A DNA stretch of 64,000 nucleotides from Bacillus sp. EAC (GTDB lineage: Bacteria > Bacillota > Bacilli > Bacillales > Bacillaceae_G): assembly GCF_002156875.1 (NCBI RefSeq), contig NZ_NCSY01000003.1:124001-188000 (forward strand). Reading direction: 5' to 3'. The position numbers were made by a program, and so were the translations under genes. The notes under the pieces are model-generated. The model ran no database searches. It saw only the letters and a list, made by a program, of their open reading frames with translations, and was not told where the DNA came from. How positions within the stretch are numbered: position 1 is the first letter of the stretch; each line of letters starts with the position of its first letter. This document shows positions 34,929-64,000 of the stretch, piece after piece.

Positions 34929-35169
34929 TAGGATCTTTTATAAAAGATTGTAAATTCCCGTTTCAGGATGCTCGCTTTCCGTGTGGCGTGCCCCTGAAGC
35001 TCCATTTTGTGTGAGGTCTCAACTGACACTCTACCCCCACAGGAGTCGAGCACATTATGCTCCATTCAAACTATCTATTGAATATCTTCTCAACGTCAAC
35101 CTAACTAAAAACAAACTTTTAAAGGAAGCCTTTATTTAAATATCAACAATATATATAAACAGAGTCTTA
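34929..35169. repeat. Dispersed repeat copy A
   Basis: 241-bp element: left end taggatcttttataaaagattgt, core caggatgctcgctttccgtgtggcgtg ... (given in parts: caggatgctcgctttccg, then cccacaggagtcgagcac), right end aaatatcaacaatatat...cagagtctta. The ends are inverted relative to each other. Its last bases form the stop codon of the EIIA gene. Confidence 0.8.
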
Positions 35170-43538: not shown

Positions 43539-43826
43539 TAGGATCTTATCTAAAAGAGAGTTGTTTTTAAAAAGGTTTTTAATACAAACTGTTAATAAAG
43601 AAGATGATGAACGGATATCCGAGACTCCTGTGGAGTAGCGGGACAGGTGAGACCCTGCAGGCCTCAATAGGTAGGCATGCTAATACCACGACGTCCTGTC
43701 GTAACGCATGCATAACCCACATCGTGTGGGTCTAGGCTCAGCGCACGCCCCACGGAAAGCGAGCATCCTGGAGGGAAATCCACGAATTACTTTTTTTATA
43801 GCAACAAAGTTCACGAAAGCATCCTA
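43539..43826. repeat. Dispersed repeat copy C with nested palindromic insert
   Basis: 288-bp element with ends taggat / atccta. The core contains gagactcctgtggagtagcg, gggacaggtgagacc, cccacggaaagcgagcatcc. Between about 43672 and 43738 lies an insert (gcatgctaataccacgacg, tcctgtcgtaacgcatgc, cccacatcgtgtggg) also found in copy F. Confidence 0.85.
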
Positions 43827-46586: not shown

Positions 46587-46839
46587 TAGGCTCTGTTAAT
46601 GTATATTGTTGATATTTAAATAAAACCTTCCTTTAAGAGACTGTTTTTATGTTAGGTTGACGTAAAGAAAATCGATAAATATAAGAATTCGATTGGAGCG
46701 TAAGGTGCTCGACTCCTGTGGGAGTTGCGGGACAGTTGAGACCCCGTAGGCGCATGGCGTCGAGGAGGCTAAAGCAGCACGCGCCACGGAAAGCGAGCAT
46801 CCTGAAGTGGAAATCAACAATCTTTTTTAACAGAACCTA
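46587..46839. repeat. Dispersed repeat copy D, with clear terminal inverted repeats
   Basis: 253-bp element. The left end taggctctgttaatgtatat (continuing tgttgatat) and the reverse complement of the right end (taggttctgttaaaaaagat, then tgttgattt) agree over about 29 bp. The core has gactcctgtgggag, cgggacagttgagacc and cacggaaagcgagcatcctg. Ends could fit a TA target duplication. No ORF. Confidence 0.85.
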
Positions 46840-56865: not shown

Positions 56866-57137
56866 TCCCTGTTTTCGTAAACTTTGTTGCCAGTAAACAT
56901 GGAGAAATGTAGATTTCCACTCCAGGATGCTCGCTTTTTAATGGGGCGCGCGATGAGCCTGGGCCCACACGATGTGGGTCATGCATGCGTTACGACAGGA
57001 CGTCGTGGTATTAGCACGCCTGCTAAGGTCTCGTCTGTCCAGCTACTCCCACAGGAGTCTCACATATCCGTTCATCTTTATTTACAGTTTGCTTTAAAAA
57101 CCCTTTTAAAAAAAACAATCTTTTAGAAAATACCTTA
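56866..57137. repeat. Dispersed repeat copy F with nested palindromic insert
   Basis: Best-preserved copy: ctgttttcgtaaactttg, gtagatttccactccagg, atgctcgctttttaatgggg, ctactcccacaggagtctc, caatcttttagaaaa. Insert at about 56963-57022 (cccacacgatgtggg, gcatgcgttacgacagg, acgtcgtggtattagcacgc) is the reverse complement of the one in copy C. Confidence 0.85.
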
Positions 57138-59442: not shown

Positions 59443-60930
59443 TCATAATTTATTATCTGATAAGGGCGAGTAATATCGATAACTGTTTTTTCCAAATTGT
59501 TTTGCCTGATACATTGCTAAGTCAGCATGTTTTAATAATGTTTTCACATCTTGTCCATCATTTGGATAAACTGATATACCGATACTTACTGTAACAACTA
59601 TATCTTTCCCATCTATACTATTTATTTGTTGAATCGATCGGATAATATCAAAAGCGATTTCATCTACTCGTTCTTGCTTGATTTGATCATCTAGTAAGAT
59701 AATTAGCTCATCTCCAGCCCATCTAGCGCTGAACCCTTGCTGGTCAACAGTATTTTCCAGGCAATTAGCTACTTTTTCTAAAAGACAATCTCCAATCTCA
59801 TGACCATATTGGTCATTCACTTGCTTAAAACCATCTAAGTCTAAAAATAGCACAGAGAACCTAGTTTCTTCATCCGCCTGGTTAATTGTCTCTGTTAATT
59901 TATCCAATAAATATCTTCTATTTGGAAGTCCAGTTAATTCATCATAATATGCCATTATTTTTATCACTTCGTTCTGTTCAGCAATTTTACCTTCAGCTTT
60001 CTTACTTTCATTAAATAATTTTTTATAGTTATATTCACTTTCAATTACAATTCGATACAGTTCAGTCATTCTTATATACATTTTTGAAAATTCGTAGATC
60101 ATACCTACCAAGACAATATTTGCTGAAACTAAAGTATTCCATTTTGCAACGTACCACCCGAGACTGTATCTTTGACCCCCACAAAGGACAATTGCAACAT
60201 CTAAGAAGGACGCTAACAATGCAACACATAACCAAGCCGAGGTTATCGTTCTTGCACGTTTCTTCCAATAAAAATAAATCAAAGTAAGGAGACAAGTCAG
60301 TAGAATGGGCGTACCTAAACCATAAATAAATAATGAAGTTAATTTACCCTCATTTAAGACAATTGGTAAATAATCGTGAAAAAATACTGTGACAAACGAT
60401 AGGCCAATTATTAGTAAAAGTACCGTGCTAATCGTAAAAATCGTAGCTATTCTTGCACTTTTTTCATTTAATAGTAAGTTCTTATATTTTGATTCAACCA
60501 TTAAATACACAAGAATAAAAATAGGATAACCTAGGTGCCAGAACAGATATAACCAAGGTGCAGTTTGTAGCCCTGCATGGAAAAGGCCATGCTCAGTGAA
60601 AACGCCTGGAAAAGTAAGCAAATACATTAGACTCATACCAGCTGAATATAGATAACCAGCTGAAAGAACGAGTATTGCAGGGGAACCACTGATTCGGAAT
60701 TGGTTGTATAATATCATAGCCGTCATAAGTTCAAAAGTAATTAATGTAGTAAATATTGCAGGTTGATAAGCTAATATTTCTGGTAGTTGCAAATTCGCAA
60801 ATGGTACACTAATTAACGAAATAATCGTTATAATGGCAGCAACAATATAAACAAATCTGCGCTGATGAGAATTTGTCTTTAAAGTTACTAAACTTTCTAC
60901 TTTATCTCTAGCCTCTTGCAGTTCTTCCAT
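59443..60930 (-). CDS. Membrane diguanylate cyclase-like GGDEF protein
   Basis: Probable c-di-GMP synthase. About eight N-terminal helices (about 25-285) form a MASE-type sensor, most like MASE4. A short coiled coil follows. The GGDEF domain (about 325-490) has AYYDELTGLPNRRYLLDKL, FLDLDGFKQVNDQYGHEIGD, the signature as RWAGDELI instead of GGDEF, and VSIGISVYP. ATG 60930 follows ggagagg; TTG 60957 is less likely. No EAL or PilZ gene is nearby. Confidence 0.9.
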   Translation of the reverse strand: MEELQEARDKVESLVTLKTNSHQRRFVYIVAAIITIISLISVPFANLQLPEILAYQPAIFTTLITFELMTAMILYNQFRISGSPAILVLSAGYLYSAGMSLMYLLTFPGVFTEHGLFHAGLQTAPWLYLFWHLGYPIFILVYLMVESKYKNLLLNEKSARIATIFTISTVLLLIIGLSFVTVFFHDYLPIVLNEGKLTSLFIYGLGTPILLTCLLTLIYFYWKKRARTITSAWLCVALLASFLDVAIVLCGGQRYSLGWYVAKWNTLVSANIVLVGMIYEFSKMYIRMTELYRIVIESEYNYKKLFNESKKAEGKIAEQNEVIKIMAYYDELTGLPNRRYLLDKLTETINQADEETRFSVLFLDLDGFKQVNDQYGHEIGDCLLEKVANCLENTVDQQGFSARWAGDELIILLDDQIKQERVDEIAFDIIRSIQQINSIDGKDIVVTVSIGISVYPNDGQDVKTLLKHADLAMYQAKQFGKNSYRYYSPLSDNKL

Positions 60931-61220
60931 GCAGACCTCTCCTAAAGTTTTCTTCAACTCTATTTAACTAAAAATTCATGATATTTTCTTAATAAAAAAT
61001 TAGTTAAAAATAACTAAAATTCAGATAAAACAATATTTACTTTTACATAAAAAGCTTAATACATCCATAATAAAACAAAATTTTTTAAAAAATTAAGCCA
61101 AAAGTCCTACAAAATCAAATTAAGTTTACTAGTAATCTAATTATATTTTCAAATGTTTTTTGAATAATAATCTTGTTAATCCAAATAATATCTTTGTTAA
61201 ATTTTAACGGAGGTGTTCTC

Positions 61221-61634
61221 TTGAAAGTTAGAGATGTTATGTCAAGTAATGTTGAATGTTGTTCAAATCAAGATTCGTTACAATCAGTCGCAAGTAAAAT
61301 GGAATCATTAAACGTAGGTGCAATACCAGTAGTTGAAAATGGGCAGATAGTCGGAATGATTACAGATCGAGATTTAGCAATCCGCGGAATTGGTCAAAAT
61401 GGGAGTGGGAGTGCCTCTCAAGTCATGACTAACAATATTGTGACGATTGATGCGAATTCGAGCCTTCAAGAAGCAGCAAATTTAATGGCACAGCATCAAA
61501 TTAGAAGATTGCCGGTAATTGAAAATGGGAATCTGGTTGGGATGCTTTCTCTTGGTGATTTAGCTATAACTGAACAGTCTGATGAGAGTGCTGGTGAAGC
61601 ATTGTCACAAATCTCTCAAAACGATATCCAGTAA
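61221..61634 (+). CDS. Tandem CBS-domain protein
   Basis: 137 residues made of two CBS domains (about 5-60 and 70-125): GAIPVVENGQIVGMITDRDL and QIRRLPVIENGNLVGMLSLGDL (the latter quoted as RRLPVIENGNLVGMLSLGDL). Such stand-alone pairs bind adenine nucleotides and regulate partners; YhcV-like. Start TTG 61221, seven bases after cggagg. The acidic C-terminus has no extra domain. Confidence 0.9.
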   Translation: MKVRDVMSSNVECCSNQDSLQSVASKMESLNVGAIPVVENGQIVGMITDRDLAIRGIGQNGSGSASQVMTNNIVTIDANSSLQEAANLMAQHQIRRLPVIENGNLVGMLSLGDLAITEQSDESAGEALSQISQNDIQ

Positions 61635-61648
61635 GTAAGCAAGTAAAT

Positions 61649-61682
61649 AGGGACCGTATTAAACACTATACGGTCCCTTTCT
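61649..61682. terminator. Terminator between CBS gene and parR-like gene
   Basis: Stem agggaccgtat / atacggtccct, T-rich on both strands; serves both convergent genes. Confidence 0.85.
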
Positions 61683-61699: not shown

Positions 61700-62293
61700 T
61701 TATTTATTCATTTGAGCAAGAAAGTCTCCAAGTAGACTGTCCATATCATCATCTTCAATAGTTTCCTCGGTTGCAGCCAGTTGACTTTTATCTGCTGTTT
61801 CCCAATTAAAATTATCTAGATCATCAACGTATGGGCTTACTTGTACAAGATCCTCTTTCTTCTCTATATTTGTTTGTAAGTGTGTATCTCTACTTTCCCA
61901 TTCAACTTCTAGATTTTTCACTTCATCTTGAAGATAGAGAGCGTCTTCTATCTCCAAAGCACTACTATTTAAAGATGTAAGGAGGGACACCGTACGGATT
62001 GGATTTGATAGTAATTGATAGACAATACTACCTAATAAGGCCTCAGAGTGCTCATGTTTTAACCAATCTCTTTGCGCTTTACTTAAACTTTTCGGAAGCG
62101 GAATCGTAATAGTTTGCCTTTGCCTTGAAAATGAATCACTTACTCCATTCATCACGTACTCGGCAATTTTACTAGAAAAATTACGTCGCTCGCTTTCCTT
62201 TAGCTTTTGTAACTGCCTTATGATTTGATCAGACGTATCGGAAGGGATTCGAAATGTGATAGGCTGTCCTCTCGTCAATTCTTTATCCTTCAT
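61700..62293 (-). CDS. ParR-like ribbon-helix-helix partition adaptor
   Basis: Likely DNA-binding adaptor of a type II partition system. N-terminal ribbon-helix-helix fold (about 8-50): PITFRIPSDTSDQIIRQLQK, then SSKIAEYVMNGV. A second helical repeat-like part (about 55-110) contains PLPKSLSKAQRDWLKHEHSE. The acidic C-terminus (TIEDDDMDSLLGDFLAQMNK) would be suited to contact the filament. It lies 9 bp after the actin-like gene on the same strand; ribosome site aaggtg. I recognise it by fold and position, not by a close named homologue. Confidence 0.78.
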   Translation of the reverse strand: MKDKELTRGQPITFRIPSDTSDQIIRQLQKLKESERRNFSSKIAEYVMNGVSDSFSRQRQTITIPLPKSLSKAQRDWLKHEHSEALLGSIVYQLLSNPIRTVSLLTSLNSSALEIEDALYLQDEVKNLEVEWESRDTHLQTNIEKKEDLVQVSPYVDDLDNFNWETADKSQLAATEETIEDDDMDSLLGDFLAQMNK

Positions 62294-62302
62294 AGAATCA
62301 CC

Positions 62303-63484
62303 TTATTTTGTCTTCGCCATTTTTTGTTCTTCGTTTTGTTTCTCTTTTTGATTTCTTCTAGAAAAATCTGCAATCAGTTTATAATAAGCATTCGCCATCA
62401 TCCAAATACTTTCTTTTTCGTCTTCAAAGAAATCAATGTTATATCCATCTAAATTATTATTTAACGTTTTAAGATAATCTTTAAGAATAAGGGACCCACC
62501 ACCAATGAAATAACATATTTCTGTTTGGGAGTTTTTCTGCCACATATTTCTTAAATGACGATACTGCTTTTTCGCTAACTCTAGAAGAATGCGATCTACA
62601 ATATCATGAACGCTTGTCCGGTTACCTTTTACCATAATATGATTTCGATCGCTTTTCTTTGTAATCATTTCAACAACATCTCTACGGCTATCTAGCTCGA
62701 TTCCATGTCTTGATCGAATTTCTTCTCGAATTGCTTCTAGCGATTCAGCAACACCTAAATTAAAGCCTTGTGCCTTATCGTCATCAACCTTTCTATTTTT
62801 AATAACAGCTATATCAGTTGAAAGTCCACCTATATCTTGAATAAGTATTCTCTTATCAATAAGAGACTTATTAATGATATTTAAATGATTATCCATCACA
62901 AGATTTATAAAAGCTGCGAATCCTTCAGGATAGACTTTCACTTCTTCAAATTTGATATTAACCTTCAATCCTTGATGCTTTGGAGTAACCAAAAACTCCA
63001 CTTGATGGACTGAGCTTAATAACTTAGATCGATAACCGACATCTTTTCCTTCCTTTACCTCTCTTAGAGGTAGGCCTGTCCCTAATATATACGTAGCCTC
63101 AATCACATTATTAGCGTTTTTCATAATCTTTTTATTTTCATCTCGTGCCGCATCTAGTGCCAAAGCCGCAAATAACATGATCAGTGTTTGGTCCTCTTCT
63201 GATTTGTTACTTCCTGGATCTAGTTCTGTTGCATTCGTACTTTTTGTTGCTAAGTGTCCGACACGATAAACTGAATTATTATCCTTAAGAGTAGGCGAGT
63301 GAACACGAATATGTATACCATCTACAGGATCTTGATTGTCTAACTCCTCTATTCCAATGATTGGTCGATCCTCTGTATCCCTAGCAATAATATTAGGAAT
63401 ATTAATTTCTGCTTCCAATTTCCCAAAAAAACCTTTGAGTGAATCATTTCCTACATCAATTGCTGCAATACGAGCATTACTCAC
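62303..63484 (-). CDS. ParM/StbA-like actin filament protein
   Basis: Actin-superfamily ATPase predicted to form filaments. Phosphate-1 loop RIAAIDVGNDSLKGFFGKL (about 4-22), phosphate-2 ILIQDIGGLSTDIAVIKN, connect/adenosine region CYFIGGGSLILKDYL are all present, so ATP binding should work. 393 residues from GTG 63484, with aaaggg nine bases ahead; codons further up overlap the ribosome site. It looks like plasmid and chromosomal ALP-type ParM of Bacillus rather than MreB or FtsA. Followed by a ParR-like gene and preceded by an iteron array. Confidence 0.87.
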   Translation of the reverse strand: MSNARIAAIDVGNDSLKGFFGKLEAEINIPNIIARDTEDRPIIGIEELDNQDPVDGIHIRVHSPTLKDNNSVYRVGHLATKSTNATELDPGSNKSEEDQTLIMLFAALALDAARDENKKIMKNANNVIEATYILGTGLPLREVKEGKDVGYRSKLLSSVHQVEFLVTPKHQGLKVNIKFEEVKVYPEGFAAFINLVMDNHLNIINKSLIDKRILIQDIGGLSTDIAVIKNRKVDDDKAQGFNLGVAESLEAIREEIRSRHGIELDSRRDVVEMITKKSDRNHIMVKGNRTSVHDIVDRILLELAKKQYRHLRNMWQKNSQTEICYFIGGGSLILKDYLKTLNNNLDGYNIDFFEDEKESIWMMANAYYKLIADFSRRNQKEKQNEEQKMAKTK

Positions 63485-63627
63485 ATAAATCATCCCTTTC
63501 ATTTTTAATAGATTTACCAACTAATCGACAATTCTGATAATAGGTTATCTAACTATTCGTGGTCGGTCAATCATCCCTACGAAACTATAATGATAATGTA
63601 AACTACACCGCTTAATTGTCATCTAAT

Positions 63628-63748
63628 ATACAAAAACGTAAACATATATACTTGTTTACATACTTGTATACCGACTTGTTTACTTGTATACGTTTTTTGT
63701 ATACAAATGTTTACAAATTGTACACGTGTATACAAAAATGTATACAAC
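63628..63748. repeat. Iteron array, candidate parC centromere
   Basis: About 120 bp packed with TTGT(A/T)TAC and its inverse: clear units at 63652, 63664, 63676, 63684 and 63697 (direct), 63709-63716, 63728-63735 and 63740-63747 (inverse), plus TTGTACAC at 63718. Spacing is about 8-13 bp, so many units lie on one DNA face. It sits 144 bp upstream of the actin-like gene, the usual place for parC, and may double as the promoter/operator. Confidence 0.75.
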
Positions 63749-63830: not shown

Positions 63831-64000
63831 TTTGGCTATTTTCGCAAACCTTGATCTACTAATTATGTACTATGTCGATTTCAACTCCAGGATGCGCGCT
63901 TTCCGTGGGGCGTGAGCTGAGCCTCCTCGGCGAGCCTGTGGGGTCTCAAGCCTTCCCGCTACTCCCACAGGAGTCTCGCACCTTCCATTCCAATCATCCC
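63831..64000. repeat. Dispersed repeat copy H (cut by window end)
   Basis: ggctattttcgcaaacc, gtcgatttcaactccagg, atgcgcgctttccgtggggc, gagcctcctcggcgagcc, ctactcccacaggagtctc. The right end lies outside the window. Confidence 0.8.

Follow-up and report, generated by a model that had tools for sequence, protein, structure and literature searches.

A ParMRC-type cassette at a constant place left of the chromosome origin in Bacillus sp. EAC and its relatives

Why should a cassette of the kind that partitions plasmids lie among ordinary genes of a Bacillus chromosome? ParMRC is treated as a plasmid system in the accessible part of a review (PMC8242196). The window analysed here, a stretch of 64,000 nucleotides from Bacillus sp. 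EAC (contig NZ_NCSY01000003.1, here C22:124001-188000 of genome G000), carries at its right end, on the minus strand, a hexamer array, a promoter-like site, a ParM-like gene, a ParR-like gene and a terminator-like hairpin, in that order (Table 1). A first-pass annotation, made from the letters of the window, had named an actin-like ATPase gene, a small gene 9 bp downstream and an upstream array, all of which are present. It offered two readings: the locus could segregate or position a chromosomal region, or it could be a relic of an integrated plasmid.

Table 1. Features of the cassette, in window positions
Feature	Position	Strand	Remarks
Candidate centromere (parC-like)	63638..63745		Ten palindromic hexamers of the GTWWAC type, with one more at 63598-63603
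Candidate promoter TTGACC-N17-TAACCT	63542..63570	-	Between array and ParM; read directly; absent from the sites of a stricter consensus scan
Shine-Dalgarno-like GAAAGGG of ParM	63494..63500	-	Nine bases upstream of GTG 63484
ParM-like actin ATPase gene	62303..63484	-	393 aa; likely start GTG at 63484
ParR-like gene	61700..62293	-	197 aa; 9 bp downstream of ParM
Second short ParR motif DDLDNFNW, in linker	61802..61825	-	Consensus DDDLDxFDW; L159 and W164 in at least 90% of 34 sequences
ParR C-terminal tail LLGDFLAQMNK, candidate ParM-binding peptide	61703..61735	-	Conservation in 34 sequences
Bidirectional terminator-like hairpin after ParR	61649..61678		Two predictions, one per strand, same hairpin

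The ParM-like protein matched the Pfam families Alp7A_like_C (PF22128, E = 9.9e-36) and ALP_N (PF17989, E = 3.1e-10), both above cut-off. The solved structures nearest to its model, which is of moderate confidence (pLDDT 71.5), were Alp7A, Dh-cParM1, BtParM and pSK41 ParM. On its domains and predicted fold it is a member of the Alp7A/ParM group of actin-like ATPases. Alp7A of pLS20, also in PF22128, is plasmid-borne and shares 18% identity with the ParM of the window in a structural alignment. A length of 393 residues is assigned because the GTG start is preceded by a Shine-Dalgarno-like site, and stop codons that interrupt the longer matched stretch of the reading frame in several relatives agree with this later start. 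A promoter pattern of the type listed in Table 1 was found within 170 bp of the ParM start in 63 of 81 loci, a count made without a shuffle control. The scan for terminators returned two against a shuffle mean of 1.5, which is weak on its own.

Those 81 loci comprise the window and the best 80 of 393 relatives, that is, its closest relatives, and in every one of them a ParR gene stands beside ParM. No Pfam family scored above its own cut-off for the ParR-like protein, the AlphaFold model was poor (pLDDT 61) and without a useful fold match, and no solved structure related to it or to plasmid ParR was found. The ribbon-helix-helix fold given to it at first reading is plausible from sequence. Homology to plasmid ParRs is seen in residues 9-104, which are 36% identical (over 98 residues) to the protein encoded downstream of ParM on plasmid pBM69. 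Alignments revealed a conserved N-terminal part (about residues 9-110), a variable acidic linker and a conserved C-terminal tail. In 34 sequences F191, L192, M195 and N196 of the tail were invariant and L188, G189 and K197 were conserved in at least 90%, while the linker before the tail varied. The structure of ParM bound to a C-terminal peptide of ParR has been solved for plasmid R1 (4a62). The anatomy of the protein from Bacillus sp. EAC would suit an adaptor that binds DNA through its N-terminus and the filament through its tail.

The third part, an iteron array adjoining the operon as parC does, lies 154 bp upstream of ParM. Its presence agrees with the first-pass annotation; its unit is a palindromic hexamer (GTATAC, GTTTAC, GTAAAC or GTACAC) and not the directional TTGTNTAC proposed there. 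Eleven hexamers occur in the 350 bp upstream of ParM, against a mean of 1.01 and a maximum of 4 in 100 dinucleotide shuffles. The count exceeded all 100 of a locus's own shuffles in 81 of 81 loci, the lowest count being 4 (L111 and L116), and the commonest spacings below 21 bp were 12, 20 and 8 bp. When clusters of at least five such hexamers in 160 bp were sought, the known array was the only one in the window and in the 83,953 bases that follow it on the contig (C22:188001-271953). The only cluster in positions 1-295000 of another genome, G662, was the one beside its ParM, and none was present in 150-330 kb of G584 or 180-400 kb of G565, stretches outside their ParM loci. A gapped-pattern search of the window's own genome for further arrays gave no matches and is uninformative, its pattern having also missed the known array. 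Eight of 80 loci (L044, L049, L069, L077, L081, L091, L093 and L114) have an extra cluster of at least five hexamers, some 0.8-1.7 kb before ParM, which hints at a second or extended centromere.

The first-pass annotation had directed attention to the sequence beyond position 64,000 as a place for plasmid genes. What stands there instead, up to the end of the contig, is queC, a PTPS gene (queD-like), a radical-SAM gene (queE-like), queF, other ordinary genes and the dnaA region, with dnaA about 74 kb from ParM. Between 251.5 and 262.6 kb the contig encodes spo0J, soj, noc, genes read as mnmG, mnmE, jag, yidC and rnpA, and dnaA; Pfam supports the que genes, soj, spo0J, noc and dnaA. As spo0J-soj-noc and dnaA are on the same contig, the cassette belongs to the left flank of oriC. 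The ParABS genes are intact in this genome.

This position is constant. Among genomes with an ortholog and few contigs, ParM was left of dnaA in 50 of 50 distinct chromosomes, encoded on the strand opposite to dnaA and separated from it by 34.8-287.3 kb (median 91.7 kb; 41 within 150 kb), 51 position handles having been reduced to 50 by dropping G402, which is the same genome as G262. Five more placements agree: the contig of the window (74 kb) and four genomes outside the order, namely G589 (51 kb), G662 (56 kb), G584 (about 42 kb, approximate because the dnaA match overruns the stretch examined) and G565 (75 kb). Distances in these five were obtained by subtraction, and G584 and G565 were placed on contigs where dnaA was expected. 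The cassette was thus left of dnaA and transcribed away from it, at 35-287 kb, in 55 of 55 chromosomes with both genes placed, and all placed copies were in leading-strand orientation. As a control, queC, which adjoins ParM in the window's genus, was within 300 kb to the left of dnaA in 3 of 48 genomes, its median distance from dnaA being 1425 kb. No probability is attached to the constant position, since the 55 chromosomes are related and do not represent 55 independent events; an ancestral origin-left position retained by descent is possible.

Adjacent genes are not constant. A search among relatives for the same neighbours, as suggested at first reading, showed instead that these differ among the 81 loci. 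In stretches of mostly 8 kb on each side, 2215 of 3240 locus pairs had no other gene family in common, and the nearest ORF of at least 100 aa belonged to 46 families upstream and 40 downstream. With a constant place left of the origin and varying adjacent genes, it is the position that has been kept and not the neighbourhood. Just beyond the cassette of the window is a gene for a protein with two CBS domains (61173-61634, plus strand), a family found in 8 of 81 loci, and it is adjoined by a gene for a MASE4-GGDEF diguanylate cyclase (59443-60957, minus strand). A dispersed repeat of about 120-130 bp occurs in the window at 63870-64000, 46691-46819, 43620-43783, 56907-57064 and 34964-35056, and in at least 42 other places in the same genome (40 of 256 candidates scored). 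Rfam Bacillaceae-1 RNA lies in the middle of two copies (43664-43730 and 56964-57030) and may be a passenger or the core of the repeat.

The cassette is probably a ParMRC-type partition module domesticated on the chromosome, with the array as an origin-linked centromere that would act beside ParABS. Location on the main chromosome and conservation among species, the marks of a chromosomal ParMR system (cParMR), are both found. Of the two readings offered at the outset, segregation or positioning of a chromosomal region draws support from origin linkage in 55 of 55 chromosomes and from an intact cassette in 81 of 81 loci, and the plasmid relic does not.

A place left of the origin might be held for gene dosage and co-orientation only, ParM and ParR being cytoskeletal or regulatory and the array the operator of their operon. 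The leading-strand orientation of all placed copies, with transcription away from dnaA, is consistent with this, and other functions of chromosomal ParMs are left open in the Discussion of Ali et al. 2025 (PMC12270681, in its accessible part). The hexamers themselves make it unlikely. Of the 711 hexamers counted at the 63 of 81 loci where a candidate promoter was found, 689 were upstream of the -35 box and not over or after it; about eleven sites are many for an operator, and the array is kept with ParM in 81 of 81 loci. Gene dosage alone, moreover, needs no centromere-like array.

The ortholog is widespread. It was present in 49 of 100 near relatives (the genome of the window counted; E ≤ 1.1e-202) and in 207 of 397 sampled genomes of the order (E ≤ 2.5e-193), one more having a weak match and 189 no match. 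In a sample of 398 genomes from the class it was found in 24, eight of these outside the order (E ≤ 4.3e-209), and nine had only a homolog of 36-46% identity. PF22128 was found in none of 14 control genomes, B. subtilis among them, and a genome of the same genus as the window (G004, 97% complete) was without the cassette. Absence from nearly half of the order and from G004 indicates that the cassette is dispensable and not generally essential. More distant second copies were detected on a separate contig of G002 (40% identity) and in the mid-chromosome of G011 (35%). Co-occurrence was also considered as a link to sporulation and was set aside, as Spo0A_C, present in 391 of 397 genomes of the order, is near-universal and cannot discriminate.

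Where it is present, ParM is conserved as strongly as DnaA. Median pairwise identity over 51 genomes (DnaN absent for one, DnaA partial for six) was 82.2% for ParM, 82.5% for DnaA, 67.5% for DnaN and 60.2% for ParR. Distances for DnaA plus DnaN correlated with those for ParM plus ParR (Mantel r 0.62, the largest of 999 permutations being 0.28), so descent is mainly common to both, yet not wholly. Trees of RpoB and ParM were compared for 25 of 30 genomes, one having no rpoB match and four being missed by a motif filter. The ParM tree rejected two RpoB clades, with Ureibacillus grouping with Neobacillus and not with Sporosarcina (p-AU 0.0008) and Metabacillus split (p-AU 0.0018), and did not reject two others (0.6 and 0.35), all of these values being optimistic as the groups were picked after the trees had been seen. 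Ammoniphilus (G584) is 82% identical to the genome of the window in ParM and 78% in RpoB. RpoB was more similar than ParM to that of the window in 21 of 23 other genomes, all except P. abyssalis and Bacillus sp. FJAT-14578. Both transfer and hidden paralogy would fit Ammoniphilus and the tree conflicts, and the Ammoniphilus cassette is still about 42 kb left of dnaA. RpoB of the genome labelled Peribacillus frigoritolerans F-D2 almost matched that of Metabacillus idriensis and stood well away from that of Peribacillus saganii; one label among L086 and L080 may be wrong.

The close homologs found were chromosomal. ParM homologs occurred in 45 of 72,556 plasmid records, the best at 44% identity, and in one of 50,697 phage records (25% identity). 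Six of the 45 plasmid loci were read: a small gene follows ParM in five, and the sixth has no annotated gene before the record ends. These Bacillales ParM/StbA systems (for example pBM69 and pPPKN03045) resemble the chromosomal cassette in gene order and in the N-terminal part of ParR, and one from P. polymyxa carries, within the 450 bp upstream of ParM, four GTATAC/GTAAAC sites. They differ in having 0-2 hexamers there in the other five loci, by eye close to or over the promoter, and a ParR of about 130-150 aa with another tail (in the five loci with an annotated ParR). The chromosomal form, by comparison, has a longer array upstream of the candidate promoter, a longer ParR and a different tail. 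This pattern agrees with an old plasmid module having become adapted to the chromosome, in the direction that we infer. The plasmid ParM of L311 (CP053689.1), a record labelled Arthrobacter citreus NEB 577, matches in its coordinates the copy on contig C2 of G002, a genome of the same genus as the window; L311 appears to belong to that genus and its species label looks wrong.

Could the chromosomal cassette act on such plasmids, its ParR or ParM competing with plasmid partition systems in trans or serving them? Plasmids of the order do carry homologous ParM genes (45 plasmid records altogether), and one homolog is on a separate contig of a genome in the window's genus. An incompatibility or helper device of this sort is nevertheless quite improbable, as the plasmid ParMs are at most 44% identical, hexamers are few at the plasmid loci, and a role in trans leaves the origin-left position unexplained.

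The ten nearest ORFs on the dnaA side of the cassette and the five nearest on the other belong to Pfam families of ordinary chromosomal functions, with no replication, mobilisation or integrase family among the 15, and no plasmid genes were recognised by eye in the rest of C22:184001-271953; the first-pass annotation had likewise seen no gene of these three kinds. It is very improbable that the cassette was left behind by an integrated plasmid or another mobile element, a reading dismissed on the evidence of the flanks, the distribution and the conservation. In its favour, related systems are typical of plasmids, and certain gene trees conflict in ways that suggest transfer or hidden paralogy. 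Against it stand flanking ORFs of ordinary chromosomal function, a ParM that equals DnaA in conservation and a cassette that is complete in every one of the 81 loci.

By analogy with ParMRC, the domesticated partition module would work as follows. ParR dimers would coat the hexamer array (parC) near the origin, and their C-terminal tails would cap and feed ParM filaments; the ParR on the array might also nucleate or follow them. With ATP, these filaments would grow from the arrays, or between them, once the origin region has been replicated, and push or hold the two sister regions apart or toward the poles, besides Soj/Spo0J (ParABS), in growth or sporulation. Since ParABS is still present, the cassette may have an auxiliary role, or one that is confined to certain conditions or linked to sporulation.

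Chromosome-encoded ParMs (cParMs) with filament activity were described in 2025, and those of Bacillus tropicus were remarked to be conserved on Bacillus chromosomes (Ali et al. 2025, PMC12270681). The family described here may include these Bacillus proteins (Bt-cParM1/2). Origin-proximal position, order-wide distribution and DnaA-like conservation are not among the features reported in the accessible part of that paper. Salactin of haloarchaea is a chromosomal actin homolog proposed to partition chromosomes; it differs in being archaeal, and the accessible part of its description has no ParR partner or DNA array (PMC10746226). ParM is unmentioned in the main text of a transcriptome paper on B. 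methanolicus (PMC4342826), and the single match in PMC5911993 is the name of an author. The literature searched (partial coverage, no preprints) gave no account of a ParMRC linked to the origin in Bacillales, nor, in the same partial search, were the constant origin-left position, the breadth or the DnaA-like conservation found in print. Chromosomal ParMs themselves are already published; within the literature searched, the fixed origin-left position appears new.

A putative, well-preserved actin-filament machinery beside the origin in many Bacillus-like bacteria suggests a second candidate engine for moving the chromosome origin. There is roughly an even chance that over half of the sampled order, and some genomes beyond it, possess two origin-segregation machines, ParABS and an ancient domesticated ParMRC with a true centromere selectively held left of oriC, also where gene trees suggest transfer. 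If so, no actin-driven, mitosis-like machine would have been known before for any bacterial chromosome, within the literature searched, and this one would have gone unseen in the model B. subtilis as that species is without the cassette. Because the cassette is conserved like DnaA and lies beside the origin in every placed chromosome of its carriers, which are cultivable spore formers, actin-driven chromosome partition is directly testable in them. In that case the model B. subtilis may be without a means of segregation on which many related bacteria rely.
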